Source of the DNA: Antiquaquibacter metalliresistens
Lineage (GTDB): Bacteria; Actinomycetota; Actinomycetes; Actinomycetales; Microbacteriaceae
Assembly: GCF_029211225.1 (NCBI RefSeq)
Contig: NZ_JARGEM010000002.1
Location: 434,001-498,000 of the forward strand
DNA: 64,000 nt
Direction: 5' to 3'
This document shows, piece after piece, positions 4,418 through 25,728 of the stretch. The notes beneath the pieces were generated by a model that saw nothing but the letters and a program-made list of their open reading frames with translations, did no database searches and had not been told where the DNA came from. Made by a program: the position numbers and the translations under genes. The first letter of the stretch is position 1. Each line of letters begins with the position of its first letter.

Positions 4418-4885
4418 ATGCGCATCCTGTTGAAGCTCGTGCTCGACTGCCCGCCGGATGCCGCCTGGAACGCCATCCGCAGCCCAGCGACCTTCGCGCA
4501 GGTCTCTGCGCCGTTCACGACCTTCGAGTCGCTCGAGCCGCAGGGATTCCCGGAACGCTGGGCGGCGGGCGCCCACCCGGTTCGCGTGCGCGCGTTCGGG
4601 GTGCTGCCGATCGGAGAGCAGTCCATCACCATCTCGTTCCCGACACGGCACGACGACGTGCGCGTGATGCGGGATGACGGCGGTGCCCTCGATGGCCCGC
4701 TCGCGGTCGTGACCGAGTGGCACCACACGATGGCGGTCTCCCCCGCGCCGCACGGGCGAACCCTCTACCGGGATCGCCTGCAGTTCAGCGCCGGGGTGTT
4801 CACGGTGGTGCTGTGGCCCGTCTACTGGGCGTTCTGGCAGTGGCGAGCCGTGCAGATGCGACGGCTCGCCACCACCTGGGTCTAG
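4418..4885 (+). CDS. SRPBCC-like protein with C-terminal hydrophobic segment
   Basis: 155 aa. The start at MRILLKLVLDCPPDAAWNAI gives a typical SRPBCC beta-1/helix opening (PPDAAWNAIRSPATFAQVS). A hydrophobic stretch near the C-terminus (VFTVVLWPVYWAFWQW) followed by basic residues may be the ligand-pocket helix or a membrane contact. Ligand unknown. It is divergent from the ComB-like gene; its stop codon overlaps the end of the giant surface-protein gene on the opposite strand by four bases. An in-frame start 15 codons upstream would run into the neighbouring promoter and was not used. Confidence 0.6.
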   Translation: MRILLKLVLDCPPDAAWNAIRSPATFAQVSAPFTTFESLEPQGFPERWAAGAHPVRVRAFGVLPIGEQSITISFPTRHDDVRVMRDDGGALDGPLAVVTEWHHTMAVSPAPHGRTLYRDRLQFSAGVFTVVLWPVYWAFWQWRAVQMRRLATTWV

Positions 4886-13800: not shown

Positions 13801-14394
13801 CGAGGCGAGCACCGTGGGGATCGCCAGCAGTGTGGATGCCGTGTCGACGTCCCCGCTGTCTCGGTTGGCGACGGTCGCGGTCGCGGTGTTGACGATGGTC
13901 TGAGCGTCCCAGTCCGCGGCGGCATCGAGCGGCACCGCGGCGACGACCGTGAACTCGAGGCTCGTTCCACCGACCATGCCGACGTTGCCGCCGCCGAGAT
14001 CGGTGGTGAGGGTCACGGTGAACGAGTTGCCCGAGGTGGTCGCGGTCGCGGTCGGGGCATCCGGAGCACCGCTGCCGGAGGCGACGGTCACCGACTGCAG
14101 CACGAGCGGTTCCGGAAGCGTGTCCTCGACGCGCAGGTCGATGCAGTCGGTCTCGAGGCTCGAGCAGGCGACGCCCATGACGTAGGTGACGAGCTCGCCC
14201 GGGCCGACCGCCGTCGGGAGCGCGGGCGAGACATCCTGCCGCAGCTCGACCCGCACGGGGTCGAAGAGCGGGTCCGGATCGTCGGCCGAGGCCGCGACCG
14301 GACTCAGCACGCTCAGCGCAACGAACGTCGACAGCGCCGTGGCGACGGCGGCGAAAGCTCCGCGCTTGCGCGGCCCTCCCCATGCGAACAACAC
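4882..14394 (-). CDS. Giant LPNTG-anchored surface protein with DUF11-like and 11 DUF5979-like repeats
   Basis: About 3170 aa. It starts at GTG 14394 with a basic n-region (GGPRKRG), a hydrophobic core and an AASA cleavage site near residue 37. Residues up to about 1876 are Ser/Thr-rich beta-sandwich modules of the DUF11/prealbumin-like type, for example RVEDTLPEPLVLQSV. Residues about 1877-3130 are eleven DUF5979-like repeats. The C-terminus has LPNTG (residues 3133-3137), a hydrophobic span and RRRRRS, a complete sortase signal. It should be covalently wall-anchored and extend far from the cell as an adhesin or stalk. The frame stays open for 470 codons upstream, but that part overlaps the divergent helicase gene and lacks signal-peptide character. 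No sortase gene lies in the window. Confidence 0.85.
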   Translation of the reverse strand: MLFAWGGPRKRGAFAAVATALSTFVALSVLSPVAASADDPDPLFDPVRVELRQDVSPALPTAVGPGELVTYVMGVACSSLETDCIDLRVEDTLPEPLVLQSVTVASGSGAPDAPTATATTSGNSFTVTLTTDLGGGNVGMVGGTSLEFTVVAAVPLDAAADWDAQTIVNTATATVANRDSGDVDTASTLLAIPTVLASTVDLTISPTTVPGIAATSVTMTVDARNTANRAVDALAVQLPASGTTLFDYVAVSALSVTTWPSGADLVQVDWLTTGSGTWNLGTPQATAALPSGVTASTITGLRLTFTSSSGGIARDAGAAVSIAGVLRSAVTSINPSATVGAAASSWSTYASVSSTPVSDSASLTINRVTVNPVATKTFTEASLLGGKNTRVTLSGSNSGNFTFSTMTIQEPADATASLEDQGLAFVSWDAARIEWPVGATSAAVGFLYADASGAYATAVSTTTRNTLPAPEDGRTVIGFRVVFTGTSMTPGQYATVPYIASTSAVAADVTTTGTMALSAVTTTSQTASTTAAAELTRRTARVNSTVDKLLQPDTIYSVPGAFTIISLPGGVDDEPTGVADPDGPTGSTVGATRFVIADTADPASDPFWDSFDIAAVIATDVPDGAAMTVEFWDGAAWLPIDAAATDIAGPTTWSRFFTPEERAAFGGIRFVFEPVGPATELPPGFSVQPNIKAVLRDTLRSDSGTTATPRETDSTIVNAVLSRVENVAATPEFAEFSDDATLSLIGIPTGGGGGGGVIDMIDKVWSASASTGEKSVLARSGDRISSTISWGTGGLPFNSVTISDSAAGVSGDPQDAADTVFEAFDLVRIPAISSTADPLLTYDRITAVELFYAGAWHATETNPCAANACDGAFPGYALSADERRDATGVRLVVEESPTRAARIGSNPLAPLVGSGVSASVGRSRHITLEFQLRDTRRSDGSAVLGLTRNAIYNSTAGVVVNTAGIVGTAVGGTERRDQGSDSVSIIDRPINAAATKTWTDGPLGIPPVGTPQELYPKARLTVSAQNTSTIRVNQLSISEPSGGTTPFEYVNLARIVSITVPSGATSSRVILQPLGTYDIADALALSATTLAAVTSIEVVHEGRIAPSARTTVTLDTQLRATVRTSGADSTARTVDNSTLASVVDPAGLSDPASGSDNTVTASASATMQIAAFEYGAAATKTIVANTTSTALAPAIQYGGSSAKATVTIGGRPTGNVRTTRMVIEDSSPTFWNAYRFDAFASSPFAAPINTVQVDVLVGVTYELDGSTLVAKCGGSADLELCWHKGTPSSSLALPTVAGATKDDIRGIRLTFTRSDYAAWERPYNPEQFVNFTVDRRATLVWTPAGTTTPVPSTLYTFPDPAPGETARATFTNAVKVTVEAAESADDTSPLWTANQSSVRAITYQHLPARIEVRKGPTGGQTLGAAIPFAITIKNTGSSGDKALTGLVVGDHIQGDASGPMLEIPKDPDTGLAYDAAHAFSYVLKNAAGVTQPAPAIVATIGTPSPAGLDLEFRMPAGSSLPVGWTLTINTPLEFRAQLIADTPVTNAVTVVTDQVLDSCDRYDNASTSPTSQQTFVAECGAETTVRPMPSAPMTIIKGVRGVGAGPLADDGTPLGFDDLGILKTQTSNPTVCDAGPNLTVNGNGYYRYPCVPITRPGGTEEWVAKFTNSGNVPVAKVVAIDLLPTGGDTGVIINESRGSKWTPKLSEYPVLNGAPAGSSLTVYYTKTSGVATPRCNAADIQYEMGMDADSNPSMSTENLVCLDSRAHIDDVLERDWQVLDPAATPEFMADIVALKLVVTMPSGLGPGSAVSVTYRSTTAAQVDIAESTLARDSVAYNSIAGAAVGIGTDADSQPIDLAYRFVTEPRKVGVALATGQVRLAKSVTGTATAYAPSTFALALTCVSAGETITLKTSTGALRSPFTVTPGTELLVEGIPLYAQCTVSEPTNYGQTATSISQEVLRAEAALDALIGSQVSNAHPAFGSENRPAIESSTVTNTYTSASLTITKTVDNGGAVNQAGTPIAYRSAPFTVSCTFDKGAGAQAITLSSGDASFSLSHGGTKTITGLVAGAVCTVTETSARGAQSTTTTVTQNEATGSAASGTARIVTLAPAANTVAYTNTYGVSSITLRKTVAGDAADTWGNRSFIVNVTCTNGNASPTTVWNENITLTKSGTTQIADRLVSAAMAGGSECTVTETDANDGGATSKSVPAKATTLTGSSRTFTVTNTFSNASLTVTKAVQTSAVDEANGSVYVADSFDFTATCTWEGQTVLALQSFTLDRVGTTSKTFSDLPAGASCTVTETDTGGADSTTIVTRDGTVNATTAVTTLVAGANSAAVTNRYAVSSFTVTKDSVGGGAAQFGQGPFTIHVTCTAPGGGNAFDDDIVLADDESRTIENLADGSTCSATEADDLGADDTTIVFDAGDVVTGSIVTVTKSNPGHATIQNWYLTGSMTVTKVLDGDASDFGVGPFTVTIECTRDGQSIVVTDPERDLLPGALSTTFTGLPSGASCTVRESDAAGASSSFIATDVSVPLTTDVAAGHAFLITVDGAIHSEQAQPTVFVVNRYQTASLVVTKQISSTAVDQDGTAIEYGPFPVEVLCEFEGAPVYATPDGTVLEPGIPLEITGLVRGAECTITELDQMDAAGTTIRTEIAGVGLSRPGASATVVLASDSGGESRNLVEIDNAYDSGSVTLAKITDGDGDAWEPETFAVRLICVLDDATGERTVWDETFALVAGDDPIELDGIAAGAECTITETATGGANATSVSMDGVSTAGTSATFTSAADDTLPVTVRNTFSLATVTVTKERTGGWDLWGDGPFEVSLQCTRDVDGSTVPVTVPGGATRELASPTYAADYEGLPLDAECELTETRSGGATASTLPDVFAVDAVETEVAVSNDFAEGSIDVTKTVTGDGSMLYGEGPFIVTLQCTRDVDGTDEAIEIPFGETRTLDADNGYADSFTRLPAGAECVLEETGIGGASVAADPVSVTVVADDAIDVALSNEFQLGMLIVTNKVTGSDGPAHEHLTFVVELACTLDVNGKDRSIEIPGGASREILHMESIEYVDLPVGAECELTETVTNDAEEVIIEPGETSKDSTVSRRTVSSKVVSTSLTTLSIGLDPVRFDVVNVYTLALPNTGRALPPIVPIGLAGLLVAFVGVAIVAADRRRRRS
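4984..4998 (-). other. LPNTG sortase sorting motif
   Basis: Codons for Leu-Pro-Asn-Thr-Gly, followed by a membrane-spanning stretch of about 25 residues and five arginines before the stop. This marks the C-terminal wall-sorting signal of the giant surface protein. Confidence 0.85.
5005..8775 (-). repeat. Eleven tandem DUF5979-like repeats (protein level)
   Basis: Eleven modules of roughly 100-120 aa occur head to tail. Each begins with (V/L)(T/A)K.(V/I) and ends with (V/I).N.(Y/F). Each contains a first Cys in a (V/A).C.. strand and a second in CTVTE. The Lys, the Glu four residues after the second Cys, and the terminal Asn are kept in all eleven, although the last copy has the Lys shifted by one (VTNKVTG). 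Sequence between these landmarks is strongly diverged, so this is an old expansion rather than recent DNA duplication. Confidence 0.75.
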
Positions 14395-14739: not shown

Positions 14740-16317
14740 ATGACCGAAACTTCCTTCGGCGCGCTCGGCGTGCCCGCTCCCCTCGTCACCGTGCTCGCCG
14801 CACAGGGCAAGTCGGAGCCGTTCCCCATCCAGCAGGACACCCTGCCCGACACCCTCGCCGGGCGCGACGTGCTCGGCCGCGGCAAGACCGGCTCCGGCAA
14901 GACCCTCGCCTTCGCGCTGCCCATGGTGGCTCGACTCGGCGGTGAACTCGCCGGCGGCAAGCGCCGCGCCGGGCGGCCGCTCGGCCTCGTGCTCGCACCG
15001 ACCCGTGAGCTCGCCACCCAGATCACCGCGGTGATCGAGCCGCTCGCGACCGCCTACGGCCTGAAGACCACCACGATCTACGGCGGCGTCTCGCAGAACC
15101 GTCAGGTGGACGCGCTCAAGCAGGGCGTCGACATCGTCGTCGCCTGCCCCGGACGCCTCGAAGACCTCATGAAGCAGGGCTTCGCCCACCTCGACGCGAT
15201 CGAGATCACCGTGCTCGACGAGGCCGACCACATGGCCGACCTCGGCTTCCTGCCGGTCGTCACGCGCATCATGGACAAGACCCCGCAGACCGGCCAGCGC
15301 ATGCTGTTCAGCGCCACGCTCGACAACGGCGTGGACAAGCTCGTGCGCCGCTACCTCCACAACGAGGTGCTGCACTCGGTCGACGAGGCCACGTCGCATG
15401 TCTCCGCGATGACGCACCACGTGTTCGAGGTCTCGGCCGAGAACAAGCCCGAACTCGTGCGCACGCTCGCCTCGGGTACCGGCCGTCGGATCCTGTTCAT
15501 GCGCACCAAGCACCACGCGAAGAAGCTGGCCAAGCAGCTGACCGAGTCCGGCATCCCGGCCGTCGACCTGCACGGCAACCTCTCGCAGCCGCAGCGCGAC
15601 CGCAACCTCGCCGCGTTCTCCTCGGGCGATGCCCGAGTGCTCGTGGCAACGGATGTCGCGGCCCGCGGCGTGCACGTCGACAACGTCGAACTCGTGGTGC
15701 ACGTCGACCCGCCCATGGAGCACAAGGCCTACCTGCACCGCTCGGGACGCACGGCGCGCGCCGGATCCGAGGGCGATGTCGTCACCGTGATGCTGCCCGC
15801 GCAACGCGGCGACACCCAGTCGCTGCTGCGCAAGGCCGCGATCGCGGTCACCCCGCAGCAGGTCACGCCGACCTCCCCGGCGGTCACCGCGCTGGTCGGC
15901 GAGGTGGCTGCGTATGTCAAGCCCGCGCCCGTGCAGCCGCGCCAGCAGCAGGGCGGCGGCGGTCGCTCGCAGGGCGCCAATGCGCAGCGCAAGCGTGCCG
16001 CCCGCGAGGGCGCGCCCACGTCGGCGCCCCGCCGCGACCGCTCGGGTCGCCCGTCGACAACCGGACGCTCCGGCGCGCCCGCGGGCAACGGCCGCTCGGC
16101 GACGGCCGCCGGCTCAGGTCGCGCCGCGGTCACCGGCGAGCGCCGCTCCGCCACGCAGCCGCACGCCCAGTCCTCGCACGCGCAGCCGGCCCGCGCCGAG
16201 CAGGCGCCCTCGCGCCCCCGCGGCGGCAACGGCCGGGCCCAGTCCTCGGGCGGCCCGATCCGGGTCGGCCAGATCGTGCGCCCCAATACCTCGGGTGGGC
16301 AGCGCCGCGGGCGCTAG
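14740..16317 (+). CDS. DEAD-box ATP-dependent RNA helicase
   Basis: 525 aa. All core motifs are present: Q-motif region PFPIQ, TGSGKT (about residue 51), APTRELA, DEAD (about residue 160), SATLD, then VATDVAARGVHV and HRSGRTARAG. The tail of about 140 aa is rich in Gly, Arg, Ser and Gln, typical of RNA-contacting low-complexity tails in cold-shock and ribosome-assembly helicases. No clear Shine-Dalgarno sequence precedes ATG 14740; an in-frame ATG at 14584 would add 52 residues of basic, poorly conserved-looking sequence, so the start is uncertain. A strong hairpin follows the gene. Confidence 0.85.
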   Translation: MTETSFGALGVPAPLVTVLAAQGKSEPFPIQQDTLPDTLAGRDVLGRGKTGSGKTLAFALPMVARLGGELAGGKRRAGRPLGLVLAPTRELATQITAVIEPLATAYGLKTTTIYGGVSQNRQVDALKQGVDIVVACPGRLEDLMKQGFAHLDAIEITVLDEADHMADLGFLPVVTRIMDKTPQTGQRMLFSATLDNGVDKLVRRYLHNEVLHSVDEATSHVSAMTHHVFEVSAENKPELVRTLASGTGRRILFMRTKHHAKKLAKQLTESGIPAVDLHGNLSQPQRDRNLAAFSSGDARVLVATDVAARGVHVDNVELVVHVDPPMEHKAYLHRSGRTARAGSEGDVVTVMLPAQRGDTQSLLRKAAIAVTPQQVTPTSPAVTALVGEVAAYVKPAPVQPRQQQGGGGRSQGANAQRKRAAREGAPTSAPRRDRSGRPSTTGRSGAPAGNGRSATAAGSGRAAVTGERRSATQPHAQSSHAQPARAEQAPSRPRGGNGRAQSSGGPIRVGQIVRPNTSGGQRRGR

Positions 16318-16408: not shown

Positions 16409-17125
16409 CTAGGCGCACTCCTGCGCGCTAAGCGGCTCGACCGCCACCGCGATGCGCTGCGCCTGCGGCACGAAGTCCGTCGGCGAGACGTCATCGATCC
16501 AGAGCAGGAACGGCGCCTCGCCGTTGCGCTCGGCAGGGTTGGCGGCGATCATCGCGACGCCACCGAACTCTTGGCCTCCGCGATCCTCGAGCGGGCGCGG
16601 TACCGCCGCGAACGACTCCGTGTTCTGCACATCGGTCTCGGTGATCACCCGCTCGAACTGCCACTGCCCGAACGGGTTGCCGCACACGCGCCCGCTCCAG
16701 CGCTCCCCGATCTCGGGCAGATTGTCGTCGAGGTGGGCGACGTACGAGGCATCCGTGAACTTCCAGCCCGCCTCGATGCGCAACGTGACCGAGTCACCGC
16801 CGCCCGCGGAATCCGCGCTCAACGTGATGACGTAGGGCGGGGCGATGTCGCGGTCGGCCTGGAAGGTGAAGTAGGTCATCCCGCGATCGTTGTGCTTGCT
16901 GAGGGCGCCACCGGTCGCGGTGCCTTCCACGGGGTAGCCGGGCAGCCGCTGCCCCGTGGCATCGGAGACGACGGGGGCGTCGATCTCGAGGATGCCGCCG
17001 CGCTCGACCCAGAGCTCGCCGTGCACGTAGTAGTCGATGCGCACTGGCTCATCGGATGACACCACCGCGCACGCGGTGAGCGTCAGCGTGACGAGAACGA
17101 GGGAGATGGCGATGAGGCGGCGCAT
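16409..17125 (-). CDS. Secreted lipoprotein of unknown function
   Basis: 238 aa. MRRLIAISLVLVTLTLTAC is a lipoprotein signal with lipobox LTAC. The mature domain is acidic with beta-strand character (ITLSADSAGGGDSVTLRI, WSGRVCGNPFGQWQFERV, FLLWIDDVSP) and has two further Cys. No family is recognised. The ATG lies inside the last 43 bp of the SARP gene on the same strand, so the two are likely co-transcribed and possibly coupled. A link to the upstream surface-protein module is plausible but unproven. Confidence 0.65.
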   Translation of the reverse strand: MRRLIAISLVLVTLTLTACAVVSSDEPVRIDYYVHGELWVERGGILEIDAPVVSDATGQRLPGYPVEGTATGGALSKHNDRGMTYFTFQADRDIAPPYVITLSADSAGGGDSVTLRIEAGWKFTDASYVAHLDDNLPEIGERWSGRVCGNPFGQWQFERVITETDVQNTESFAAVPRPLEDRGGQEFGGVAMIAANPAERNGEAPFLLWIDDVSPTDFVPQAQRIAVAVEPLSAQECA

Positions 17126-20010
17126 GGTGTCGATGGTGGGCGACCGAGCGTCCCGAGGGACAGAGGCAGATGCCCACAACTTCCCGCGAGCGACGAGCGC
17201 CGCCCGGGCGGCAACTGGGCGGCGACCGAGCGCAGCAGCATCCCCGCCTCGTCGAGGGTGAGCCGCGTGCCCTCCCGGTAGGCGGCGTTCCAATCCGCCG
17301 TCGTCAGCGCCTGTTTGGCGCGCGTGCGATACGACTCGTGGGCCTCGTCGTTGACCGCGGCGCGAGGAAACCCATAGACCGCGCCGAGGCGATCGACGGC
17401 CCCGAACAATCGGGCGCCATCACGTTGGCGCTCGGCCAGCGAGACGGCGATCGCGCCCGCGTGCAAGGCGAGGATGACCGCGAGCACGTCGCCCTGCGGC
17501 GCCAGTAGATCGAGGCAGCGCACGAGCTCGTCGATCGCATCCCGCGGGCGGCGGGCCTTGATGAACTCGTGGGAGAGGCTCCACGACGAGGATCCCGCGG
17601 CCCACCCGTCGCTCGCGGCGAGCGCGGCGCCGATCGCAGCTTGAAGGTCCGCCATCGTGTTGGCCGGCTTGCGTGCGGAGATGTGACAGATGCTGCGAAA
17701 CCGGAAGAACTCGCTCACGGCCCATGGCTCGACACCACTCGCGAGGATCGATTCCGCCTCGGTCATGAGCTTCATGCCTGCGGCCACGTCGCGGTCGCAC
17801 AGCCACATGGCGTTGCAGGCGAGGAAGAGCGCGTGCAAGGTTCTGCTGCCCGAGCGGGCGGCGAGCGGCATTCCGGCGAGCGCGTAGGCCTCGCCCGCGA
17901 ACTTGTCACCGGAGCGGTAGACGATCATGATCGCGCCCCAGTAGGCGCGCGCGTCGAAGTATGGCGACACCTCGCCCGGCAGGTCGAGCGCCGTGTCGAT
18001 CCATCGCCAGCCCTCCGAGATCACGCCGCGCATGAACCAGTGCCATGCCTGTCCGCCAGCGAGCCGCACCGAGATCTGCCGGTCGTTTCTGGCGATCGCA
18101 TTCGAGAGTGCGGCCAGCAGCTCCGCGCGCTCGCTGTCGAAGGCGTCATGGGCCTCGGCACTGTGTGGGCCCCGCACGCGAGGCTCGAGCGTGTCGACGA
18201 GGTCGGCGAACCATTGCGAATGCCGCACGCGCCACGCGTCGCGGTCATCGATCGACGGCAGCTGCCGCGCATACAGCTTGACCGACTCCAGCAGACGGTA
18301 GCGGCGACCGCGCGCGCCGCCCCCCTCGACGGCGAGCAATGACTTCTGCGCCAGCACCGCGGCCACCTCGCGCACGTTGTCGTCGGGCAACACGCAGATG
18401 CCCGCGATCGCATCGAGCGAGACGCTGCCGGCGAAGTTGCCCAGTTGCGCGAGCAGTTCGAGCTCGGCGGGGCGCAGCAATCTCGCACTCCACTCGATCG
18501 TGTTGTGCAGGCTGCCGTGCCTGCCCGCGTCGTGCCCCCGCAGGCTCAGCAACTCCTCCGACTCGAGCGAGCGCACCAGTTCGGCGAGGTCCATCACATC
18601 GAGTCGCGCCGCCGTGAGTTCGAGGGCGAGCGGCAGCCCGTCGAGCAGTCGCGACAGATGCTGCACGGTGGGCAGCGTCTGCGCGTCCAGCTCGAAGCCG
18701 GGCATGGCATCCGCTGCCCGCTCGCTGAACAGGGCGACGGCGTCGTCCGCATCCTCACCGAGCATCGGGGCGACCGGGATGAGACGCTCCCCCGCGATGC
18801 GCAGCGGCTCCCTGCTCGTGACGAGCACGCTCAGGCCCGGGCTCGCCGCGAGAAGAGCGGCGATGAGCGAGGCGACGTCTTCGCGCAGGTGTTCCGCGTT
18901 GTCGACCACAAGCACGGTGCCCTGCCCGGAGAGTTGTTCGGCGATCGCCTCGATCGTCGTCGTCGTGGCACCGACGAGTTCGCGAAGCGCGGATGCCACC
19001 TCCCGCCCACTCGTGTAGCTCGCGAGTTCGAGCAGCCACTGCTCGCCATCGACCGAGCCGATCGTTTCACGCAGCGACTCCACCGCGAGTCGGCTCTTGC
19101 CGACACCACCCGGACCGGTGACGGTCACCAGGCGCGACAGACGGCGCGCCTGCGCGATGAGCTCGAGCTGGGCCCGGCGCCCGATGAACTTCGTGATCGG
19201 CAGGGGCACACCGTGCTGGGCCTGGCGACCGACCGCCATGGCCGGCAGCACGTCCGGATCCTGTCGGACGATGGACATGCGCAACGCGGCGAGCGCCGGC
19301 GAGGGGTCGAGCCCCTGGTCAACGGACAACCGCCGCGAGAACGCGTCGATCACCTCGAGGGCATCCGTCGTGCGCCCCGAGCGCGCCAGCGCGGTGGCGA
19401 GCAGGCGGGCCGGCGCTTCGTGGGCCGGGTGCGCCGCCACGAGTGGGGGCAACGCGTGCAGCACCGAGTCGAGCTCACCGTCGGCCAAACGCTGCTCCGC
19501 GAGCGCCTCGCAGACCCGGCGCCAGAGGTCGAGCAGTTCGGCCCGCCAACCGTCGGCGAACGGTGCCACGATTCCGCGAAGCGGCTCGCCCGCCCAGAGC
19601 GACTCGGCGCGCTCCAGGCCCGCGCGTCGCCTCGTCACCAGTGCCGCCTCCGCGGCGTCGCGAAAGTCGAGCACATCGACGCGAGTGTCCGCGGCGAGGG
19701 CGTACCCACCTCGACCGCCCTGAACGTGATCGCCAAGGCCAGCGGAACGCAGCCGGGAGACATTCGCCCGCAGCGTGCCCGCGGCCGTGGGAGGAGGGCT
19801 GGACCAGACATCGTGCGACAGTTGCTCGACCGAGATCTGCTCGCCAACGCTCACCGCGAGGCGAGCAACGATTGCCGCTGGCAGGGCGCCGCGCAACGCA
19901 ACGGGCGATCCGTCCACATGCAGCACGATCCGCCCGAACAGCGTGACGGTGGCTGGCGCGGACACCCGCCCATTCTGGCTGACGACCGAACTCACCTGCG
20001 CGAGCGTCAT
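17083..20010 (-). CDS. AfsR/SARP-family regulator with BTAD and NB-ARC-type ATPase domains
   Basis: 975 aa. Residues about 18-110 form an OmpR-like winged helix (VTLFGRIVLHVDG, then LRANVSRLRSAG). Residues about 110-265 are the bacterial transcriptional activator domain, ending in DQGLDPSPALAALR. An NB-ARC/AAA module follows with Walker A GPGGVGKS (about residue 297), VLVVDNAEH (Walker B) and LPLALELTAARL, then helical TPR-like repeats. Such proteins activate promoters by binding 11-bp-spaced direct repeats. The start overlaps the hydrolase stop by ATGA. The last about 25 residues (PLSLGTLGRPPSTP...) look unlike a conserved tail and overlap the next gene. Confidence 0.85.
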   Translation of the reverse strand: MTLAQVSSVVSQNGRVSAPATVTLFGRIVLHVDGSPVALRGALPAAIVARLAVSVGEQISVEQLSHDVWSSPPPTAAGTLRANVSRLRSAGLGDHVQGGRGGYALAADTRVDVLDFRDAAEAALVTRRRAGLERAESLWAGEPLRGIVAPFADGWRAELLDLWRRVCEALAEQRLADGELDSVLHALPPLVAAHPAHEAPARLLATALARSGRTTDALEVIDAFSRRLSVDQGLDPSPALAALRMSIVRQDPDVLPAMAVGRQAQHGVPLPITKFIGRRAQLELIAQARRLSRLVTVTGPGGVGKSRLAVESLRETIGSVDGEQWLLELASYTSGREVASALRELVGATTTTIEAIAEQLSGQGTVLVVDNAEHLREDVASLIAALLAASPGLSVLVTSREPLRIAGERLIPVAPMLGEDADDAVALFSERAADAMPGFELDAQTLPTVQHLSRLLDGLPLALELTAARLDVMDLAELVRSLESEELLSLRGHDAGRHGSLHNTIEWSARLLRPAELELLAQLGNFAGSVSLDAIAGICVLPDDNVREVAAVLAQKSLLAVEGGGARGRRYRLLESVKLYARQLPSIDDRDAWRVRHSQWFADLVDTLEPRVRGPHSAEAHDAFDSERAELLAALSNAIARNDRQISVRLAGGQAWHWFMRGVISEGWRWIDTALDLPGEVSPYFDARAYWGAIMIVYRSGDKFAGEAYALAGMPLAARSGSRTLHALFLACNAMWLCDRDVAAGMKLMTEAESILASGVEPWAVSEFFRFRSICHISARKPANTMADLQAAIGAALAASDGWAAGSSSWSLSHEFIKARRPRDAIDELVRCLDLLAPQGDVLAVILALHAGAIAVSLAERQRDGARLFGAVDRLGAVYGFPRAAVNDEAHESYRTRAKQALTTADWNAAYREGTRLTLDEAGMLLRSVAAQLPPGRRSSLAGSCGHLPLSLGTLGRPPSTPCAASSPSPSFSSR

Positions 20011-20822
20011 CCCGCCAGCTCCTCCCAGAACGCGACGATCTCGCGAGCGAGAGCCGCAGGCTGCTCGAGGGGCACGAGCGTGCGCGACCAGGAGACCGTC
20101 GTCGAGCGAGCGCCGGCACGCTGGCCGGCGATCGCCTTCGCGAGTGCCGGGGTCCACTCACCACGGTCATCGCTCGCGATGAAGAGCGCGGGCGCGCTGC
20201 CGGCGCACAGGACCGTCCTGAGGTCACGGCGGCGAAGCACGAACGACGCGAACGTCGTCGAGAGGCTGCGTTTGCTCTGTCGATGCATGGAGTCGTGGAT
20301 GACGGCGAGCGCATCCGGGTCGGCGGCGCGACTGTAGTCGGTCAGCTGCGCCTCGGCCACGAGCGCGATGAGGAAGGGCGCGGGGCCGGCGGCGCGCAGC
20401 ACCGGGCGCAGCATCCGGAGCTTCCTCTTCTGGCGCGGGGTGAGGCACTCGGACGGCGCGCTGATGGCGACCAGACTGCCGATCCGACCGGGGTGGGCCG
20501 CGTCGAGCTCGTAGCCGACGTGCCCGCCCCAGGCGTTGCCCACCCAGTCGACAGGTTCCGTGATGCCGAGGCCGTCGAGCAGATCGACCGCGGCATCCGC
20601 ACAGTGCTTCATCGTCGTGACTCGAACGAGTTCGTCGGATGCCCCGTAGCCGGGGCCATCGACGACCACGAGCCGGCGGTGACGTGAGAGCGGCTCGATC
20701 ATGCGCGACCAGCTCGAGGAGTCGACGAACATGCCGTGCCACAGCACCGCGATGGCGCCCTGACCGTACTCGCGAACGGCAAGCCTGCCCAGTCTCGTCT
20801 GCACAAGCCGCGGTGTGGTCAC
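20007..20822 (-). CDS. Alpha/beta-hydrolase-fold protein lacking Ser nucleophile and His (paralogue 1)
   Basis: 271 aa. The fold is clear: VLWHGMFVDSSSW (oxyanion region), VVVDGPGYGASDEL and the elbow VGNAWGGH. At the elbow position where the nucleophile Ser belongs (G-N-S-W-G-G in relatives) there is Ala97. The Asp region (SDDRGEWTP) remains, but the His expected before LVPLEQP is Thr248. It should therefore be catalytically inactive. It is closely related to the protein at 24277-25098, which has the same losses. It starts with GTG overlapping the glycosyltransferase stop (GTGA) and overlaps the SARP start (ATGA), so it is tightly coupled to both. Confidence 0.75.
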   Translation of the reverse strand: MTTPRLVQTRLGRLAVREYGQGAIAVLWHGMFVDSSSWSRMIEPLSRHRRLVVVDGPGYGASDELVRVTTMKHCADAAVDLLDGLGITEPVDWVGNAWGGHVGYELDAAHPGRIGSLVAISAPSECLTPRQKRKLRMLRPVLRAAGPAPFLIALVAEAQLTDYSRAADPDALAVIHDSMHRQSKRSLSTTFASFVLRRRDLRTVLCAGSAPALFIASDDRGEWTPALAKAIAGQRAGARSTTVSWSRTLVPLEQPAALAREIVAFWEELAG

Positions 20823-22114
20823 GAGCGGACGTTCTCCGCGGAGAGTCGGTCGACGATCGCGAGGATGCCCTCAACCCCCGGAGCGCGTGCGATCGAGGCA
20901 CCGATGCGGTTCGCTGCGTCGCGGAAGGAGTTGTCCGCCAGCACGCGACGCACGCCCGCGGCCACGGCGGTGTCGCTCGGACGATTGGTGCGCAGGTTCA
21001 CCCCGACTCCCGACCACTCGACGCGGGCGCTGACCTCGATCTTGTCCTCGGTCGCACCCGCGACGACGAGGGGAACACCGTGCGTGAGCGCGAAGTGCAC
21101 CCCGCCGTATCCGCCGTTCGTCACCATCACATCGACGCGAGGCAGGAGCTCGTCGTAGGGCAGGTACTCCGCCAGTCGAACGTTCGCCGGGACGCGTTCG
21201 GGCACCGACGAGATCGGACGACCGCCCGTCGACACGACCACGATCACGTCGTCGCCCGCGAGACCGCGCATGGTGGGCAGGATCAGCTCTTCGTAGTCCT
21301 GATTCGCGACCGTGCCCTGACTGACGTGGACGACCGGGCGTGAACCATCGAGCTCGCCCCACCACTCGGGCAGGGCCCCCGCGTTCGGCGCCGACGTGGA
21401 GACCGGTCCGACGAAGTGCACCATGTCGGGCAGGTCGGAACGCGGATACTCGAACTCCGGAACCGTGAACTGCACGATGGCATCCGCGAGGCTCGGCCAG
21501 TTGAGGAAGAAGCCGGGCATGTGCTTGCCGGTGATGGCCAGCATCTGCTCGTCAGCGAACTTCTGCACCGGGGCGAAGATGATCTTCTCGGCGACGAAGG
21601 TGTTGAAGCTGTCCCGCAGCCGGCCGACCGGACCAGGCATGGGTTTGAGCCCGAGGCCGAACGGTGCGGTGTCGCGACTCTTGATGCCGAGCGGAATGAT
21701 GCCCAGGTTCACGATCGGAGGACGCTCAGCGCGTGGGGTGACGAGCAACGAGAGGATGCCCGTGAACATCGATTCCGTCATGATGAGATCGGTCGGTGCC
21801 GTCAGCGCTCCGCGAAGAGCAGCGGCCTGGGCGCGCATCGGCCTCAGGAATATCTCGATCATGTCGTATCGGATGCCGGCCGGCCCGGTCAGGCCGACGC
21901 GCCGGGGGAACGCGGTATCCATCGAACGATCGTCGTAGTCGGCGGCGTCGGGAAGCGGCAAGAATCGTGCACCGGCCGCCTCGACCGCGTCGCGGTAGCG
22001 CTGGCCGGTGAGAAACCGCACCTCGTGGCCCGCCGCGACAAGGGTGCGAGTGACGGCGAGCAAGGGGGTGACGTGCCCGTGCACGGGGGTGCTGCAGATG
22101 AGGATCGAAGACAT
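20819..22114 (-). CDS. GT1-family (MGT/UGT-like) glycosyltransferase
   Basis: 431 aa, GT-B fold. The N-terminus MSSILICSTPVHGHVTPLL is the acceptor-domain opening of macrolide/flavonoid-type glycosyltransferases. The C-terminal donor domain has HVSQGTVAN, NVRLAEYLPYDELLP and the signature VTNGGYGGVHFAL (around residues 330-342) with GVPLVVAGATEDK. These enzymes move a sugar from a nucleotide donor to a small hydrophobic acceptor. No signal peptide or membrane span is seen. It lies between a wall-protein gene and a pseudohydrolase gene in one minus-strand operon, so its acceptor may be a metabolite handled by that module. A hairpin precedes it. Confidence 0.8.
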   Translation of the reverse strand: MSSILICSTPVHGHVTPLLAVTRTLVAAGHEVRFLTGQRYRDAVEAAGARFLPLPDAADYDDRSMDTAFPRRVGLTGPAGIRYDMIEIFLRPMRAQAAALRGALTAPTDLIMTESMFTGILSLLVTPRAERPPIVNLGIIPLGIKSRDTAPFGLGLKPMPGPVGRLRDSFNTFVAEKIIFAPVQKFADEQMLAITGKHMPGFFLNWPSLADAIVQFTVPEFEYPRSDLPDMVHFVGPVSTSAPNAGALPEWWGELDGSRPVVHVSQGTVANQDYEELILPTMRGLAGDDVIVVVSTGGRPISSVPERVPANVRLAEYLPYDELLPRVDVMVTNGGYGGVHFALTHGVPLVVAGATEDKIEVSARVEWSGVGVNLRTNRPSDTAVAAGVRRVLADNSFRDAANRIGASIARAPGVEGILAIVDRLSAENVRS

Positions 22115-22131
22115 TGGGTGCTTTCTGTTGG

Positions 22132-22161
22132 GGGCCGCCCGGCGGAGTCGCCAGGCGGCCC
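22132..22161 (-). terminator. Hairpin between LASTG-protein and glycosyltransferase genes
   Basis: GGGCCGCC (22132-22139) pairs with GGCGGCCC (22154-22161); inside it GGCG (22141-22144) pairs with CGCC (22149-22152), with one C/A mismatch and a 4-nt loop. Very stable, without a U-tract. It could partly terminate transcription after the wall-protein gene, or protect its mRNA end so that it is made in excess over the glycosyltransferase. Confidence 0.55.
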
Positions 22162-22172
22162 GTTGAGAGGGG

Positions 22173-24191
22173 TCAGCGGCGCACGCGCGCCACGGCCAGG
22201 AAGGAGGCACCGGCAGCCATGAGTCCGCCGATCAGCAGCAGGGGTGCCCAGATCTCGACGCCCGTGGATGCGAGGCCGAAGGTCGGCGCCTGGTTGCCCG
22301 CGACGACCGTGTACTCGAGCGAACGGGTCGTGCGGTTGCCCGCCTCGTCGATCGCTTCGAAGTCGATCGTGTGCTGCCCGAGCGTCTCGGTCGGCAGCAC
22401 CGAACCGGCCACATCGACGGCCTCACAGCTCGCGACTCCCGAGAGCGCGTCGGCGCACTCGAAGGCGAGATCGACGACCTCACCCTGCGTGAACGTCTTC
22501 GTCGCGACGAGCGAGGCCACCTGGTTGCCGGGCTTCGAAATGTCGATCGTCGGCGCCGTGCGGTCGATGCCGACCGTGTAGTGCTGCGGCGCGGAGCTGT
22601 TGCCGGCTGCGTCGATCGCGTAGGTCGTGAAGACCGTCTCACCCTCGGCGGTCACCGTGTACTCGAAGGACGCGCCATCCACGAACCGACCGCTGATCGG
22701 CTCGGCGCCGTCGGCCTGCACCCACAGTTGCGCCACGCCGCTGACATCATCGGTCGCCCTGAGCGTCACCGTGACATCGCCGCGCGACACCCAGCCGCTC
22801 GCGGTCGACTGAACGTTCACCTGCGGTGCAGTGGTGTCGTCGGCGACCGTGTAGTTCCAGGTGGTCGTCGTGCTGTTGCCCGCGACGTCGGTGTTGGTGA
22901 GCGTGAAGGAGTGATCGCCCTCGACATCGGTGGGCAGCAGGCTGCCGGATGCCCCGTTGCTCGACGCGCACGATGCGACGCCCGAGAGGGCATCCGCGCA
23001 GTCGTAGTGCAACTCGTAGACCTCGCCGACCGTGAAGTGGCCCGGGAAGCCGCTGACGGTCGCCCCCGAGACCTCCTTGTCGACCCGGTGCACGTACTCG
23101 ATCGGTTCGCTCACGTTGCCGAGCGAGTCGGTGGCGCGGAACTGGTTGGTGTGGATGCCGCTGGCGAAGAACTGGAAGGACGCCCTGACCTCCGACTCAC
23201 CACTTGGGTTCGCGGCCGCGGTGACCCACGGGCCCCATCCACCAGCCGCGAGCGCGGGACGATACTCGAACGACTGGATGGGGTTGGCATCCGTGGCGAC
23301 GAAGTCCACCTCGACCGCCTTGTTCCACCAGCCAGACGCGGGAACGGTCTCGCTCGGCTCGACGGTCACGACCGGGGCGGTGGTGTCGGGCTCCAACGCG
23401 GGGAGCACGGTGTAGTTGACGTGGGGCTGCGCGCCGTTCGTCGAGTTGTCGTTGCCGCCGAAGTACATGATCCACTCGCCGACCTTGTCGAGCGTGTAGG
23501 TCTCACCAGACACGACAGGCCTCCCCGGCTCCTCGTACGGGAACGCCGCGCACACGTTGACGCCGCTCAACGCGTCGGTGCAGCTGAAGTCGAACGTGAT
23601 CTGATCGCCGACGCGGTAGACGTCGCCCTCCTTGGGCGAGTTGATGGAGAACACGGGGCCTTCGCTGTCGATGCGCAGGGTGTACTCCTCCACTGCGACG
23701 AACTCGGCCGAGTCGGTCACCGTGACCTGAAGGGTCGTGACTCCTTCCCCGGTGATCGAGATGGTCGCGGGCGACGAGCCCTTCGAACCGGATCCGGTGG
23801 TGGCACCGCTGAGGGTCCACTCGATGCTGACGATGCTTCCCTGGCCGACGGTCGCGCCGACCTGCACCGCGAACGGCTCATGGTGCCATCCGTTGTAGCC
23901 CGCGGGGATCGAGGGCTCGTGGAGTGTGACCGTGGGGCCCTCGGGGTCTTGCGGGTCGCCGGTTGAGGCGAGGCCCTCGGGTTCGGGCAGGGAGGCCTCG
24001 ACGGGTGCCTCGAGAGCCTCGGCGACCGGAAGGGTCTCATCGACCGCGGTCTGTGCGACCTCGACGGTCTCGGGGGTTTCGGGCTCGCCGGTCGCGTAGG
24101 CGGCACCGACGGTGGTGGCAATGGTGATGGGTACCAGTGCGGCCACGGCGATCGCGGCGCGCGCCCATCTGGATGCGTTCTTGGTTGTCAT
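22173..24191 (-). CDS. LASTG-type wall-associated protein with Ig-like/OmpL47-like repeats
   Basis: 672 aa. A signal peptide (cleavage near AYA, residue 33) is followed by a Pro/Glu-rich stretch and several Ig-like beta-sandwich modules of the type found in bacterial surface proteins (TTAPVVTVEPSE, DRTAPTIDIS). Three modules contain the loop C-x-DALSGV-x-x-C, suggesting repeated small disulfide loops. The C-terminus has LASTG (640-644), a hydrophobic span and ARVRR, a non-canonical LPxTG-like signal. The 11-bp-spaced CAACGT repeats lie 54 bp upstream of the start. It is the first gene of the operon leading to the glycosyltransferase, pseudohydrolase and SARP genes. Confidence 0.75.
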   Translation of the reverse strand: MTTKNASRWARAAIAVAALVPITIATTVGAAYATGEPETPETVEVAQTAVDETLPVAEALEAPVEASLPEPEGLASTGDPQDPEGPTVTLHEPSIPAGYNGWHHEPFAVQVGATVGQGSIVSIEWTLSGATTGSGSKGSSPATISITGEGVTTLQVTVTDSAEFVAVEEYTLRIDSEGPVFSINSPKEGDVYRVGDQITFDFSCTDALSGVNVCAAFPYEEPGRPVVSGETYTLDKVGEWIMYFGGNDNSTNGAQPHVNYTVLPALEPDTTAPVVTVEPSETVPASGWWNKAVEVDFVATDANPIQSFEYRPALAAGGWGPWVTAAANPSGESEVRASFQFFASGIHTNQFRATDSLGNVSEPIEYVHRVDKEVSGATVSGFPGHFTVGEVYELHYDCADALSGVASCASSNGASGSLLPTDVEGDHSFTLTNTDVAGNSTTTTWNYTVADDTTAPQVNVQSTASGWVSRGDVTVTLRATDDVSGVAQLWVQADGAEPISGRFVDGASFEYTVTAEGETVFTTYAIDAAGNSSAPQHYTVGIDRTAPTIDISKPGNQVASLVATKTFTQGEVVDLAFECADALSGVASCEAVDVAGSVLPTETLGQHTIDFEAIDEAGNRTTRSLEYTVVAGNQAPTFGLASTGVEIWAPLLLIGGLMAAGASFLAVARVRR

Positions 24192-24244
24192 GCGATCCAC
24201 ACTGACGAACCGCCGCGCCGCATCCGCTCGCGGGGAGGGGCTCA

Positions 24245-24261
24245 CAACGTCCGCGCAACGT
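24245..24261 (-). promoter_or_regulatory. SARP-type direct-repeat site upstream of LASTG protein gene
   Basis: Two CAACGT hexamers (24245-24250 and 24256-24261; ACGTTG on the coding strand) spaced 11 bp start to start. The 11-bp phase is the known spacing of SARP binding sites. The site lies 54 bp from the start codon at 24191 and differs at only two positions from the site at 25152-25168. No convincing -10 is seen downstream, which fits an activator-dependent promoter. Confidence 0.5.
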
Positions 24262-24276
24262 TGCCTGTCGCGGCGC

Positions 24277-25098
24277 TTACAGCTCGGCCCAGAACTCCAG
24301 GATGACCTCCGCGAGCTCCGCCGGCCTCTCGGCGGGAACCACCACGCGCGACCCGGCGATGATCGCCGTGCGGCTGTGCGGAACGAGTGCCGCCGCGGCA
24401 TCCATGGCTTCGGGCGTCCACTCCGGACGGTCATCGCCGGTCACGAAGAGGGTGGGCGCGGAGATGCTCGAGAGGGATGCGGTGACATCCAGCCGTCGGA
24501 TGATGAACGACTCGACCGTGTTCGCGAGGCTGCGCTTGCTCGCGCGCGACAGCGCCCCCGTGACCGACCTCGCAATCTCGGGATTCGCGCGGTTCTCGTC
24601 GGTGAACTGATTCTCGAGGATCGCCGATCGCACGGGCCCGACGGGCCCGAGCACGCGCAGCAGGGCCGTCAGGAAGCGCACCTTACGGCTCAGCGCAGCA
24701 TCGATGGGCTGCGTGGGTGAGCTGATCGCAATGAGGCTCGCCACGAGTGCGGGGCGACTCGACGCGAGCGCCATTCCGGTGTGGCCGCCCCACGCGTTGC
24801 CCACCCAGTCGACCGGCTCGCGGATGCCGAGGCCGCGCAGCAGCTCTGCTGCTGCCTCCGCGCCCTCCTCGATCGAACTGATGGTCTCGAGCTCGTCGCT
24901 GGCCCCATAGCCGGGACCGTCGACGATGTAGAGGGTGCGTTCGGCGGCGAGCGCGGGAATCAGGCCGTCCCAGCTCGCGCCGTCGACGAACATGCTGTGC
25001 CACAGGATCGCGGCGGGGCCAGTGCCGACGATTCGCACCGAAATGTTGCCCAGGCGGGTCGGAATGAGTTGGGTTTGGATCGGAAGCGAGACAGTCAT
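24277..25098 (-). CDS. Alpha/beta-hydrolase-fold protein lacking Ser nucleophile and His (paralogue 2)
   Basis: 273 aa, a clear paralogue of the protein at 20007-20822: shared blocks MFVD..SW, VDGPGYGASDELE, GIREPVDWVGNAWGGH and AISSPTQ. The nucleophile position in GNAWGG is Ala102 and the His position before VVPAERP is Val252, while the Asp region GDDRPEWTP is intact. The same two losses in both copies argue for a maintained non-catalytic role, such as ligand binding, rather than decay. The start at 25098 is preceded at 54 bp by the 11-bp-spaced CAACGT repeats. 85 bp separate it from the LASTG-protein gene, which has its own copy of the site. Confidence 0.75.
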   Translation of the reverse strand: MTVSLPIQTQLIPTRLGNISVRIVGTGPAAILWHSMFVDGASWDGLIPALAAERTLYIVDGPGYGASDELETISSIEEGAEAAAELLRGLGIREPVDWVGNAWGGHTGMALASSRPALVASLIAISSPTQPIDAALSRKVRFLTALLRVLGPVGPVRSAILENQFTDENRANPEIARSVTGALSRASKRSLANTVESFIIRRLDVTASLSSISAPTLFVTGDDRPEWTPEAMDAAAALVPHSRTAIIAGSRVVVPAERPAELAEVILEFWAEL

Positions 25099-25151
25099 GC
25101 TGATCAGCTTCGGTGCCGGGGTGACAACCCGGACGCGCGGAACGCCGGCAA

Positions 25152-25168
25152 CAACGTCCCTGCAACGT
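25152..25168 (-). promoter_or_regulatory. SARP-type direct-repeat site upstream of pseudohydrolase gene
   Basis: CAACGT at 25152-25157 and 25163-25168, 11 bp apart, matching 15 of 17 positions of the site at 24245-24261 and at exactly the same distance (54 bp) from its start codon. The flanking sequence is not conserved, so the similarity is confined to the putative binding site. Confidence 0.5.
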
Positions 25169-25188: not shown

Positions 25189-25728
25189 CTACGGCAGCAC
25201 GCCCACCGAGGCGAGCGCCGCCCGCAGCAGCGACCCGCGGCCACCCTCCATGTCGGCGGTGACGGACTCGGATGCGGCCTCCGCCGGGCGCAGCCACGTG
25301 ACTTCCAGCGCGTCCTGGCGCGGCTCGCAGGTGCCCGTGATCGGCACGACGTAGGCGAGCGACACGGCGTGCTGGCGGGCATCCATGAACTGGCTCGATC
25401 CGGGCCAGGGGAAGTACTCGGCGACCGAGAACGGCACCGGTGAGGCCGGCAGTAGCGGGAACGCCATCGGGCCGAGGTCCTTCTCCAGGTGGCGGAACAG
25501 CGCGTCACGGAGTGTCTCGCCGTAGAGCACGCGTCCGGAGACGAGCGTGCGGGTGATCTCGCCGTCGTTCGCACGCAGCAGCATCCCGACCTCGGTGACC
25601 TTGCCGAGGCCGTCGACGCGCACCGGCACCGCCTCGACGTAGAGCAGCGGGATGCGCTTTCGCGTCTCCGCGAGCTCGTCGTCTGAGAGCCAGCTCGACT
25701 GCGGATCGGGGGTGCCCACGGTGCTCAT
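25189..25728 (-). CDS. Nudix-like (DUF4916) protein
   Basis: 179 aa. The pattern SWLSDDELAETRKRIPLLYVEAVPVRVDG, then LLRANDGEITRTLVSGRVLYGETLRDALFRHLEKDLG, is that of the DUF4916 group within the Nudix superfamily. The canonical box GX5EX7REUXEEXGU is degenerate here (GETLRDALFRHLEKDLG lacks the paired Glu), so classic pyrophosphohydrolase chemistry is doubtful. It is cytosolic, with no signal. It is divergent from the esterase gene at 25767 with 38 bp between the starts. Confidence 0.7.
   Translation of the reverse strand: MSTVGTPDPQSSWLSDDELAETRKRIPLLYVEAVPVRVDGLGKVTEVGMLLRANDGEITRTLVSGRVLYGETLRDALFRHLEKDLGPMAFPLLPASPVPFSVAEYFPWPGSSQFMDARQHAVSLAYVVPITGTCEPRQDALEVTWLRPAEAASESVTADMEGGRGSLLRAALASVGVLP

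Follow-up and report, generated by a model that had tools for sequence, protein, structure and literature searches.

Operator-like repeats link a large SARP-family regulator to surface-protein and nucleophile-less hydrolase genes in Antiquaquibacter metalliresistens

Introduction

Regulators of the Streptomyces antibiotic regulatory protein (SARP) family are, in the excerpts of the literature drawn on here, mostly activators of antibiotic gene clusters, with EmbR as an exception. The locus considered in this work lies within a 64,000-nucleotide stretch of the Antiquaquibacter metalliresistens genome (contig NZ_JARGEM010000002.1, positions 434,001 to 498,000; hereafter the window, to which all coordinates refer) and consists of six minus-strand genes. 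These encode two alpha/beta hydrolase-fold proteins lacking a catalytic nucleophile (hyd1 and hyd2), a wall protein with an LASTG sorting signal, a GT1 glycosyltransferase (GT), a large SARP and a putative lipoprotein; an earlier note had listed the same six genes from the sequence, and their coordinates and families were verified. Judged on sequence comparison, the locus probably represents a SARP-controlled surface-protein regulon with a small-molecule arm of hydrolase-fold proteins and a glycosyltransferase.

The closest described systems share individual features with this locus. AfsR of Streptomyces likewise couples a SARP domain to an ATPase and a C-terminal part within about 1000 aa (PMC10936776, PMC10972967), and its operator comprises two 11-bp direct repeats of a unit that starts with CGTT, CGTT(T/C)ATCGNN (PMC10972967). 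Published descriptions of SARP operators give repeats spaced by 11 or 22 bp, with 8 bp separating the 3' repeat from the -10 element (PMC10936776), and heptamers with 4-nt spacers (PMC5930380). In the case of PimR/SARP-LAL the heptamer consensus is CGGCAAG, the reverse complement of which has TTGC, as do the repeats of the window (PMC5930380). Loss of EmbR, a mycobacterial regulator of the SARP family, changes cell shape and the envelope, and embCAB expression was reported to be unchanged in the EmbR deletion (PMC9239209). The RsbQ-RsbP pair of Bacillus provides a precedent for a sensing module in which an alpha/beta hydrolase and a signalling protein are encoded together (PMC3183031).

Results

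Operator-like direct repeats precede hyd1 and the wall protein gene

The genes for hyd1 (24277–25098, minus strand, 273 aa) and the LASTG protein (22173–24191, minus strand, 672 aa) are each preceded by a predicted SARP operator of two repeats 11 bp apart, ACGTTGCAGGGACGTTGT (25151–25168, minus strand) and ACGTTGCGCGGACGTTGT (24244–24261, minus strand), with the final base of each 53 positions ahead of the A of the ATG. Both follow the pattern ACGTTGC-N4-ACGTTGT, containing two ACGTTG units with an 11-bp period, and both the phase and the CGTT start agree with published SARP operators. As a sequence pattern, the 11-bp direct repeats of a SARP operator are present in both putative promoters. 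The exact hexamer pair ACGTTG-N5-ACGTTG occurs at these two sites only in the 3.07-Mb assembly, and with one mismatch allowed the genome contains six sites, compared with three for the reversed control. Beside related SARPs, described below, the exact pair is found between the hydrolase and SARP genes of locus L020 and, in reverse orientation, before the wall protein gene of L270, while a pair with one mismatch precedes the GT gene of Salinibacterium soli at the same 53-position distance. The genome G049 carries three exact pairs, two at its SARP loci and one inside a gene; the third is therefore taken as chance. A 6-of-7 heptamer self-match at period 11 is on its own a weak test, with 0.5–1.4 matches expected per region.

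The more general pattern TTGY-N7-TTGY was found before 13 of the 32 genes that make up the seven loci of the SARP group, compared with 16 of 2086 genes elsewhere. The Fisher p of 8e-18 is optimistic, as the pattern was broadened with the loci already in view and the test was not blind. Two of the 13 genes reflect boxes counted twice between divergent genes (L020 and L272); the coordinate ranges of the seven loci were set by hand, and L281 and L282 were removed from the count as overlaps. Excluding the seven genes of the window left 11 of 25 (p 6e-16). Because the pattern was picked after seeing the loci, a spacing control is the fairer test, and periods of 7–10 and 12–16 in place of 11 gave 0–1 of the 32 genes. 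No such box was found before any of the 142 genes at 13 control SARP loci.

The remaining genes of the locus are arranged so that the GT stop and hyd2 start share a GTGA overlap (20819–20822), the hyd2 stop and SARP start share an ATGA overlap (20007–20010), and the lipoprotein start codon falls within the final 43 bases of the SARP gene. The two four-base overlaps were correctly reported in the earlier note, which also described the six genes as packed together; this description did not hold. Intergenic gaps of 90 bp 5' of hyd1, 85 bp 5' of the LASTG gene and 58 bp between the LASTG and GT genes were present, and the module is therefore not a single tightly packed operon. A hairpin with a 13-bp stem and no T-run (22132–22161, minus strand) occupies the LASTG-GT gap, and the surrounding 66-nt stretch (22110–22175) has a folding energy of -32.2 kcal/mol (z -5.0). 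The hairpin may act as an attenuator or terminator, which would allow output of the surface protein to exceed that of the downstream genes.

Besides the optimistic p value, several observations weigh against SARP control of the locus. Within the window alone, a search for the 18-bp pattern that tolerated three mismatches or fewer gave two matches, both exact, where 1.8 are expected by chance; because this count equals chance, the weight rests on exactness and whole-genome uniqueness. The exact hexamer pair is also present in 28 of the 149 related genomes, including genomes without this SARP group, and the box of the L270 wall protein is not caught by TTGY-N7-TTGY. By eye, with no promoter scan run, no -10 element was recognised 8 bp past the 3' repeat at either box of the window. 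No box lies directly 5' of the GT, hyd2, SARP or lipoprotein gene in the window, and their control would therefore need read-through past the strong hairpin. Finally, two loci of the SARP group, L271 and L273, have no sorting-signal protein. Taken with the recurrence of the repeats in several genera, the step in which the SARP acts on hyd1 and the LASTG gene nevertheless remains likely as a prediction. The earlier proposal that the SARP controls its neighbours is in this way favoured by the operator-like repeats before hyd1, the LASTG gene and the S. soli GT.

Two related repeats were observed elsewhere. A conserved element, the identical site ACGTTGTGTATACGTTG, is shared by nine genomes from the same genus as the window (G001, G004, G005, G009, G010, G011, G017, G020 and G026); the exact matches found in the window genome do not include it. 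In G134, overlapping direct and inverted ACGTTG repeats (C1:216365–216383; L314 4366–4384) lie about 178 bp before the gene for a 1115-aa protein with an LADTG-type end, and nothing in that genome matches this SARP at E 1e-50.

The SARP belongs to a small group whose loci mostly encode surface proteins

The SARP (17083–20010, minus strand, 975 aa), a predicted activator and autoregulator, consists of a BTAD domain (64.8 bits, cutoff 22.1), an AAA/STAND-type ATPase part and a C-terminal part. The OmpR-type winged helix ahead of the BTAD domain was read from the sequence and has no Pfam match of its own, and the C-terminal part gave no TPR match in Pfam at E 0.01. The protein was earlier described as a SARP/NB-ARC regulator; its ATPase part scores above the cutoff for AAA_22, and NB-ARC reaches 16.3 bits against a cutoff of 23.5. 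At 88.1 bits to the NCBIfam AfsR model NF053617 (cutoff 1430), it does not qualify as an AfsR orthologue by that model.

When the best five candidates per genome were scored, nine SARP genes in five of the 149 related genomes formed a distinct group at 487 bits or above, with the next candidate at 272, and a further 396 genomes of the order yielded one additional SARP at 306 bits. The nine genes occupy seven loci, namely the window, S. soli, L020, L270, L271, L272 and L273. At L020 a hydrolase gene is divergent from the SARP gene and an LALTG protein is encoded beyond it, at L270 the SARP is followed by an LATTG protein, and L272 encodes two SARPs, a lipoprotein and LASTG proteins. Two SARPs and a lipoprotein are encoded at L273, and L271 encodes an FAD-binding protein and no surface protein. 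Sorting-signal genes are present at five of the seven loci, compared with one of 13 lower-scoring control SARP loci and 7 of 2052 background genes, and hydrolases with the GNAWGG motif of hyd1 and hyd2 at three of seven compared with none of 13; the control loci span about 14 kb each (one 8.4 kb), similar to the group loci except for the 64-kb window. That this SARP adjoins surface proteins and not biosynthetic genes, as noted earlier, is borne out by these counts, and Pfam and NCBIfam gave no match to polyketide synthases, nonribosomal peptide synthetases or terpene cyclases among the proteins of the stretch.

The LASTG protein carries OmpL47/Big-type Ig-like repeats and ends in LASTG, a hydrophobic stretch and RVRR. 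The C-terminal LxxTG motif, hydrophobic stretch and basic tail of a sortase substrate are shared by a giant LPNTG protein, and both are predicted to be anchored to the wall. The giant protein (about 4882–14394, minus strand, start codon inferred) has 11 DUF5979 matches and was reassigned from a 3640-aa open reading frame downstream of the lipoprotein gene, the first 470 codons of which are antisense to a DEAD-box helicase gene (14740–16317, plus strand). Because the helicase gene intervenes between the giant and SARP genes in the window, membership of the giant protein in the module is uncertain. In S. soli a relative of 4032 aa with an LALTG signal, 44% identical over 3187 aa, is encoded directly 3' of the SARP. 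The putative lipoprotein (16409–17125, minus strand, 238 aa; lipobox read from the sequence) matched nothing in Pfam or NCBIfam at E 0.01 and had no BLAST match in the loci compared.

The hydrolases have lost the catalytic triad

Both hyd1 and hyd2 (20007–20822, minus strand, 271 aa), paralogues of 46% identity, match Abhydrolase_6 (58.2 and 51.0 bits, cutoff 26.3). An AlphaFold2 model of hyd1 gave a confident hydrolase fold (pLDDT 95.9), and the nearest structures in the PDB were serine esterases and an enol-lactonase (TM 0.86–0.87); as modelled, the protein is an alpha/beta hydrolase in fold. The RsbQ structure 1wom was also a profile match. At the nucleophile elbow both proteins read GNAWGG, placing Ala at the nucleophile position (Ala102 in hyd1), and alignment with 4uhh and 2xua placed Arg at the Asp position of both and Val (hyd1) or Thr (hyd2) at the His position. 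All three triad positions are altered (A/R/V in hyd1, A/R/T in hyd2), neither protein has a Ser, Cys or Asp nucleophile with the accompanying Asp and His, and from their sequences neither is able to use the classical serine mechanism. The earlier description of two dead hydrolases holds in this respect.

The GNAWGG hydrolases are a large actinobacterial family extending from mycobacteria to Microbacteriaceae. A full-length search of the 149 related genomes found relatives in 13, including the window's own genome, and was combined with 80 of 86 confirmed loci from a motif-seeded search of named genomes to give, after removal of duplicates (L034, L037, L058 and L065), a set of 92 proteins. The nucleophile position is Ala in 90 and Gly in two, although the 80 loci were partly found through the pattern VDWVGNAW, which favours Ala; among the 16 matches of the unbiased full-length search, 14 have Ala and two Gly. 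Elsewhere in the elbow, Asn is present in 89 of the 92, and Trp in 86 with Phe in the other six. An alignment of 55 rows, composed of the window proteins and motif-search loci, shows no variation at W33, D39, N101, A102 and W103.

A quick tree of 90 rows, from which the fragments L094 and L104 were left out, placed the window proteins in a 28-row clade (support 99) in which Arg mostly replaces Asp, and Thr, Val or Ile mostly replaces His. A second group of 20 rows (support 85) has His and Tyr at the two positions in 19 rows. Among the remaining 42 rows, 34 retain His and 23 retain Asp; where Asp is missing, its position is taken by Val, Ile, Ser, Leu and other residues. From these patterns the 28-row and 20-row groups look like cases of replaced function, and the remainder looks in part like drift.

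The family is often encoded beside a ligand-sensing type of regulator

TetR and MarR regulators are generally ligand sensors. A 5' neighbour no more than 400 bp away was found for 78 of the 92 hydrolase genes, on the opposite strand in 67, and Pfam matches identified 30 of the 78 as MarR and 28 as TetR. This total of 58 may be low because the codon-based caller used for genes in relatives missed some clustered neighbours. Among 40 control hydrolases, 39 had a close 5' neighbour, of which three were TetR, two MarR (5 of 39) and one LysR among the matches listed, the tallies covering 25 listed families of 61 and of 80 and leaving rarer regulators uncounted. The controls are PF12697 matches from order-level relatives only, with the family set taxonomically broader; GxSxG is present in 30 of the 40 in the stretch checked, and some controls are other open reading frames. 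A profile-based tally over all 92 genes gave an opposite-strand MarR or TetR in 59, a SARP in four and neither in 29. When restricted to the relatives from the unbiased search (n = 14), a divergent TetR was present in eight, a SARP in two and neither in four, and 8 of 14 compared with 5 of 40 controls gave p 0.002. Many mycobacterial rows are closely related and several control genes are orthologous, and these counts do not represent independent events.

On the tree, MarR neighbours fall in the 42-row remainder and TetR neighbours in the 28-row and 20-row groups; L112, with TetR, is the single exception. The four SARP-linked hydrolases (hyd1, hyd2, L027 and L020) all fall in the 28-row clade, where hyd1 pairs with L020 (SH-aLRT 95) and hyd2 with L027 (99). 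The quick tree does not support a single clade of the four, and the AU test does not reject one (p 0.16); it is not claimed that hydrolases were recruited to SARP loci twice independently.

Two further arrangements were observed. In mycobacteria the hydrolase gene, usually with MarR, occupies one conserved site (L079, L080, L083, L084, L088, L100, L106 and kin), next to what we take to be genes for a GabT-like aminotransferase, a YajC-like protein and a protein of about 1200 aa and, in some, presumably an aldehyde dehydrogenase. At four loci (L054, L059, L062 and L076) a gene of cluster c42, encoding a small putative membrane protein, is found immediately 3' of the hydrolase gene or facing it.

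A divergent TetR or MarR is a usual layout for a regulator and its target enzyme, and it is quite possible, if short of probable, that GNAWGG proteins are active nucleophile-free enzymes, of the lyase, cofactor-free oxygenase or cyclase type, encoded by a regulator-controlled detoxification or catabolic gene. Around the elbow W33, H34, D39, N101, W103 and H106 are invariant or nearly so, and in two tree groups the Asp and His replacements are nearly constant (Arg with Thr, Val or Ile; His with Tyr), unlike free decay. However, no catalytic residue was identified, and two of the three triad positions vary between groups, such that a single mechanism for all is not evident. The hydrolases may be receptors or unusual enzymes.

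The glycosyltransferase and the history of the site

The GT (20819–22114, minus strand, 431 aa) is GT1/MGT-like and scores above the cutoffs of EryCIII-like_C and UDPGT. GT1 enzymes usually carry THxG at the donor site. Here the motif is TNGGYGG or close, and because [TS]N[GA]G[YF]GG is present in 25 of 26 rows, with no such motif in one partial row, it is taken to be a subfamily trait. In the stretches fetched for 24 loci of GT relatives (18 + 6) outside the window and S. soli, neither a related hydrolase nor a related SARP was present, and 14 of these loci had a divergent TetR. A further GT relative (52%), found via its hydrolase and separate from the 24, lies about 0.75 kb past such a hydrolase in the Actinomycetales metagenome-assembled genome D148 (L031), with a TetR gene between. 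Each gene there has its own divergent TetR, and L031 was dropped as a GT-hydrolase pair.

In genome G047 (L275) a GT-TetR pair has as neighbours relatives of the NUDIX (79%), esterase (51%) and DEAD-box helicase (77%) genes of the window, and that stretch contains no GNAWGG hydrolase and no SARP. The DUF4916/NUDIX gene of the window (25189–25728, minus strand) is a flank outside the module that marks the chromosomal site. Given a GT-TetR pair at the equivalent site, the GT of the window lineage therefore appears to have shed TetR and passed to control by the SARP, hyd2 lying between the two, and the LASTG gene and hyd1 may be later additions in the window. The order GT-hyd2-SARP-giant wall protein is conserved in S. 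soli, the first three genes overlapping or touching in both species; hyd1 and the LASTG gene are absent from that locus, and another GNAWGG-type hydrolase is encoded elsewhere in S. soli (L021). A conserved neighbourhood beyond one strain, which the earlier note had proposed to look for, is accordingly present for GT-hyd2-SARP in S. soli and, in another genus, for a hydrolase gene divergent from a related SARP. The full six-gene set as one conserved system was rejected, as none of the 24 other GT loci has a related hydrolase or SARP in the fetched stretch and the S. soli locus lacks hyd1 and the LASTG gene.

The SARP could alternatively control surface proteins only, the hydrolases and GT being passengers in the operon with an unrelated metabolic role. 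Relatives of both are often encoded with TetR or MarR elsewhere, the gene after the box in the window is that of the LASTG protein and not the GT, and L270 and L272 link a SARP to surface proteins with neither a hydrolase nor a GT. Such an arrangement is nonetheless unlikely, given that boxes lie directly before hyd1, the L020 hydrolase and the S. soli GT at similar distances and that GT-hyd2-SARP has been retained, overlapping or touching, in two species. Chance co-location in a variable chromosomal site, with the shared repeat derived from a duplicated promoter, would fit the site of G047, which has only GT and TetR, and the paralogy of hyd1 and hyd2. It is very improbable, since the 52 bases from box to start agree at only 17 positions ungapped between hyd1 and the LASTG gene, about as expected by chance, and the boxes recur beside related SARPs in other genera. 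An antibiotic-response system was suggested by the earlier note. In the form considered here, with the GT inactivating a macrolide-like drug sensed by the SARP, it has as its pointer only the distant kinship of the GT to macrolide GTs (121.4 bits to the MGT model TIGR01426, cutoff 260; 49.4 bits to the macrolide-inactivating model NF033129, cutoff 700) and is scarcely credible with scores so far under the cutoffs, no exporter gene among the six and surface proteins that fit it poorly.

A defence-system reading was dropped, as none of the six module proteins matched a PADLOC family at E 0.001. Further along the window (36309–63998) lies a CoA-dependent catabolic region encoding a thiolase, acyl-CoA dehydrogenase, AMP-binding ligase, MFS transporter and branched-chain-type ABC transporter. 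Behind each of its CoA-transferase genes, at 41223 and 53967, comes a partner gene of similar length that lacks a Pfam match at 1e-10.

Discussion

In the proposed mechanism, the large AfsR-like SARP would bind the 11-bp-spaced direct repeats before hyd1 and the LASTG gene, activating hyd1 and, by reading past the hairpin, the LASTG-GT-hyd2-SARP-lipoprotein genes. With the SARP gene within its own transcript, a positive feedback loop may result. The predicted output is the LASTG wall protein, the lipoprotein and possibly the giant wall protein, and the small-molecule arm would comprise the GT and the two hydrolase-fold proteins. Their family is often encoded beside TetR or MarR, and the best guess is that the hydrolases bind, or modify without a nucleophile, a small molecule that sets the state of the regulator. 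Ligand binding by these proteins is plausible.

The gibberellin receptor GID1, of a plant family that binds DELLA proteins, is a hydrolase fold turned small-molecule receptor with loss of catalysis, and in kind the GNAWGG family may resemble it as a receptor derived from a dead hydrolase. A bolder and, for now, doubtful reading would make GNAWGG proteins a widespread actinobacterial counterpart of GID1, small-molecule receptors serving an adjoining MarR, several TetR types or a SARP, and here feeding a SARP whose switch acts on the surface coat rather than on antibiotic synthesis. As a topic, the hydrolase family stands apart from the SARP and is broader; it is often found beside TetR or MarR, and its ligand or reaction, if found, could reveal what many adjoining regulators respond to. 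The SARP hypothesis is directly testable given the short operator sequence. Literature searches, in which most subscription journals were outside coverage, returned one unrelated match for the GNAWGG motif and, for inactive hydrolases and for SARPs with sortase, no title or abstract among those listed that describes the present system.

Each of the known systems differs from this locus in at least one part. The target of AfsR is afsS, whereas the predicted targets of the window SARP are surface proteins, hydrolase-fold proteins and a GT, and its score to the AfsR model is far below the cutoff. PimR/SARP-LAL has another C-terminal half and targets polyene biosynthesis (PMC5930380). The C-terminus of EmbR is an FHA domain (PMC9239209). 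RsbQ signalling requires an intact Ser-Asp-His triad (PMC3183031), whereas the triad is gone in the window proteins and the neighbour is a DNA-binding regulator; no PAS domain is among the Pfam matches of the module proteins, and RsbQ-type sensing does not describe them. The serine esterases and enol-lactonases 4uhc and 2xua (PcaD-like) share the fold at 19–24% identity, and differ in that the nucleophile Ser is replaced by Ala or Gly in all 92 family members. Set beside AfsR, PimR and EmbR, a SARP group with operator-like repeats before wall-anchored proteins would, if the prediction is true, add a further job to those of the SARP family.

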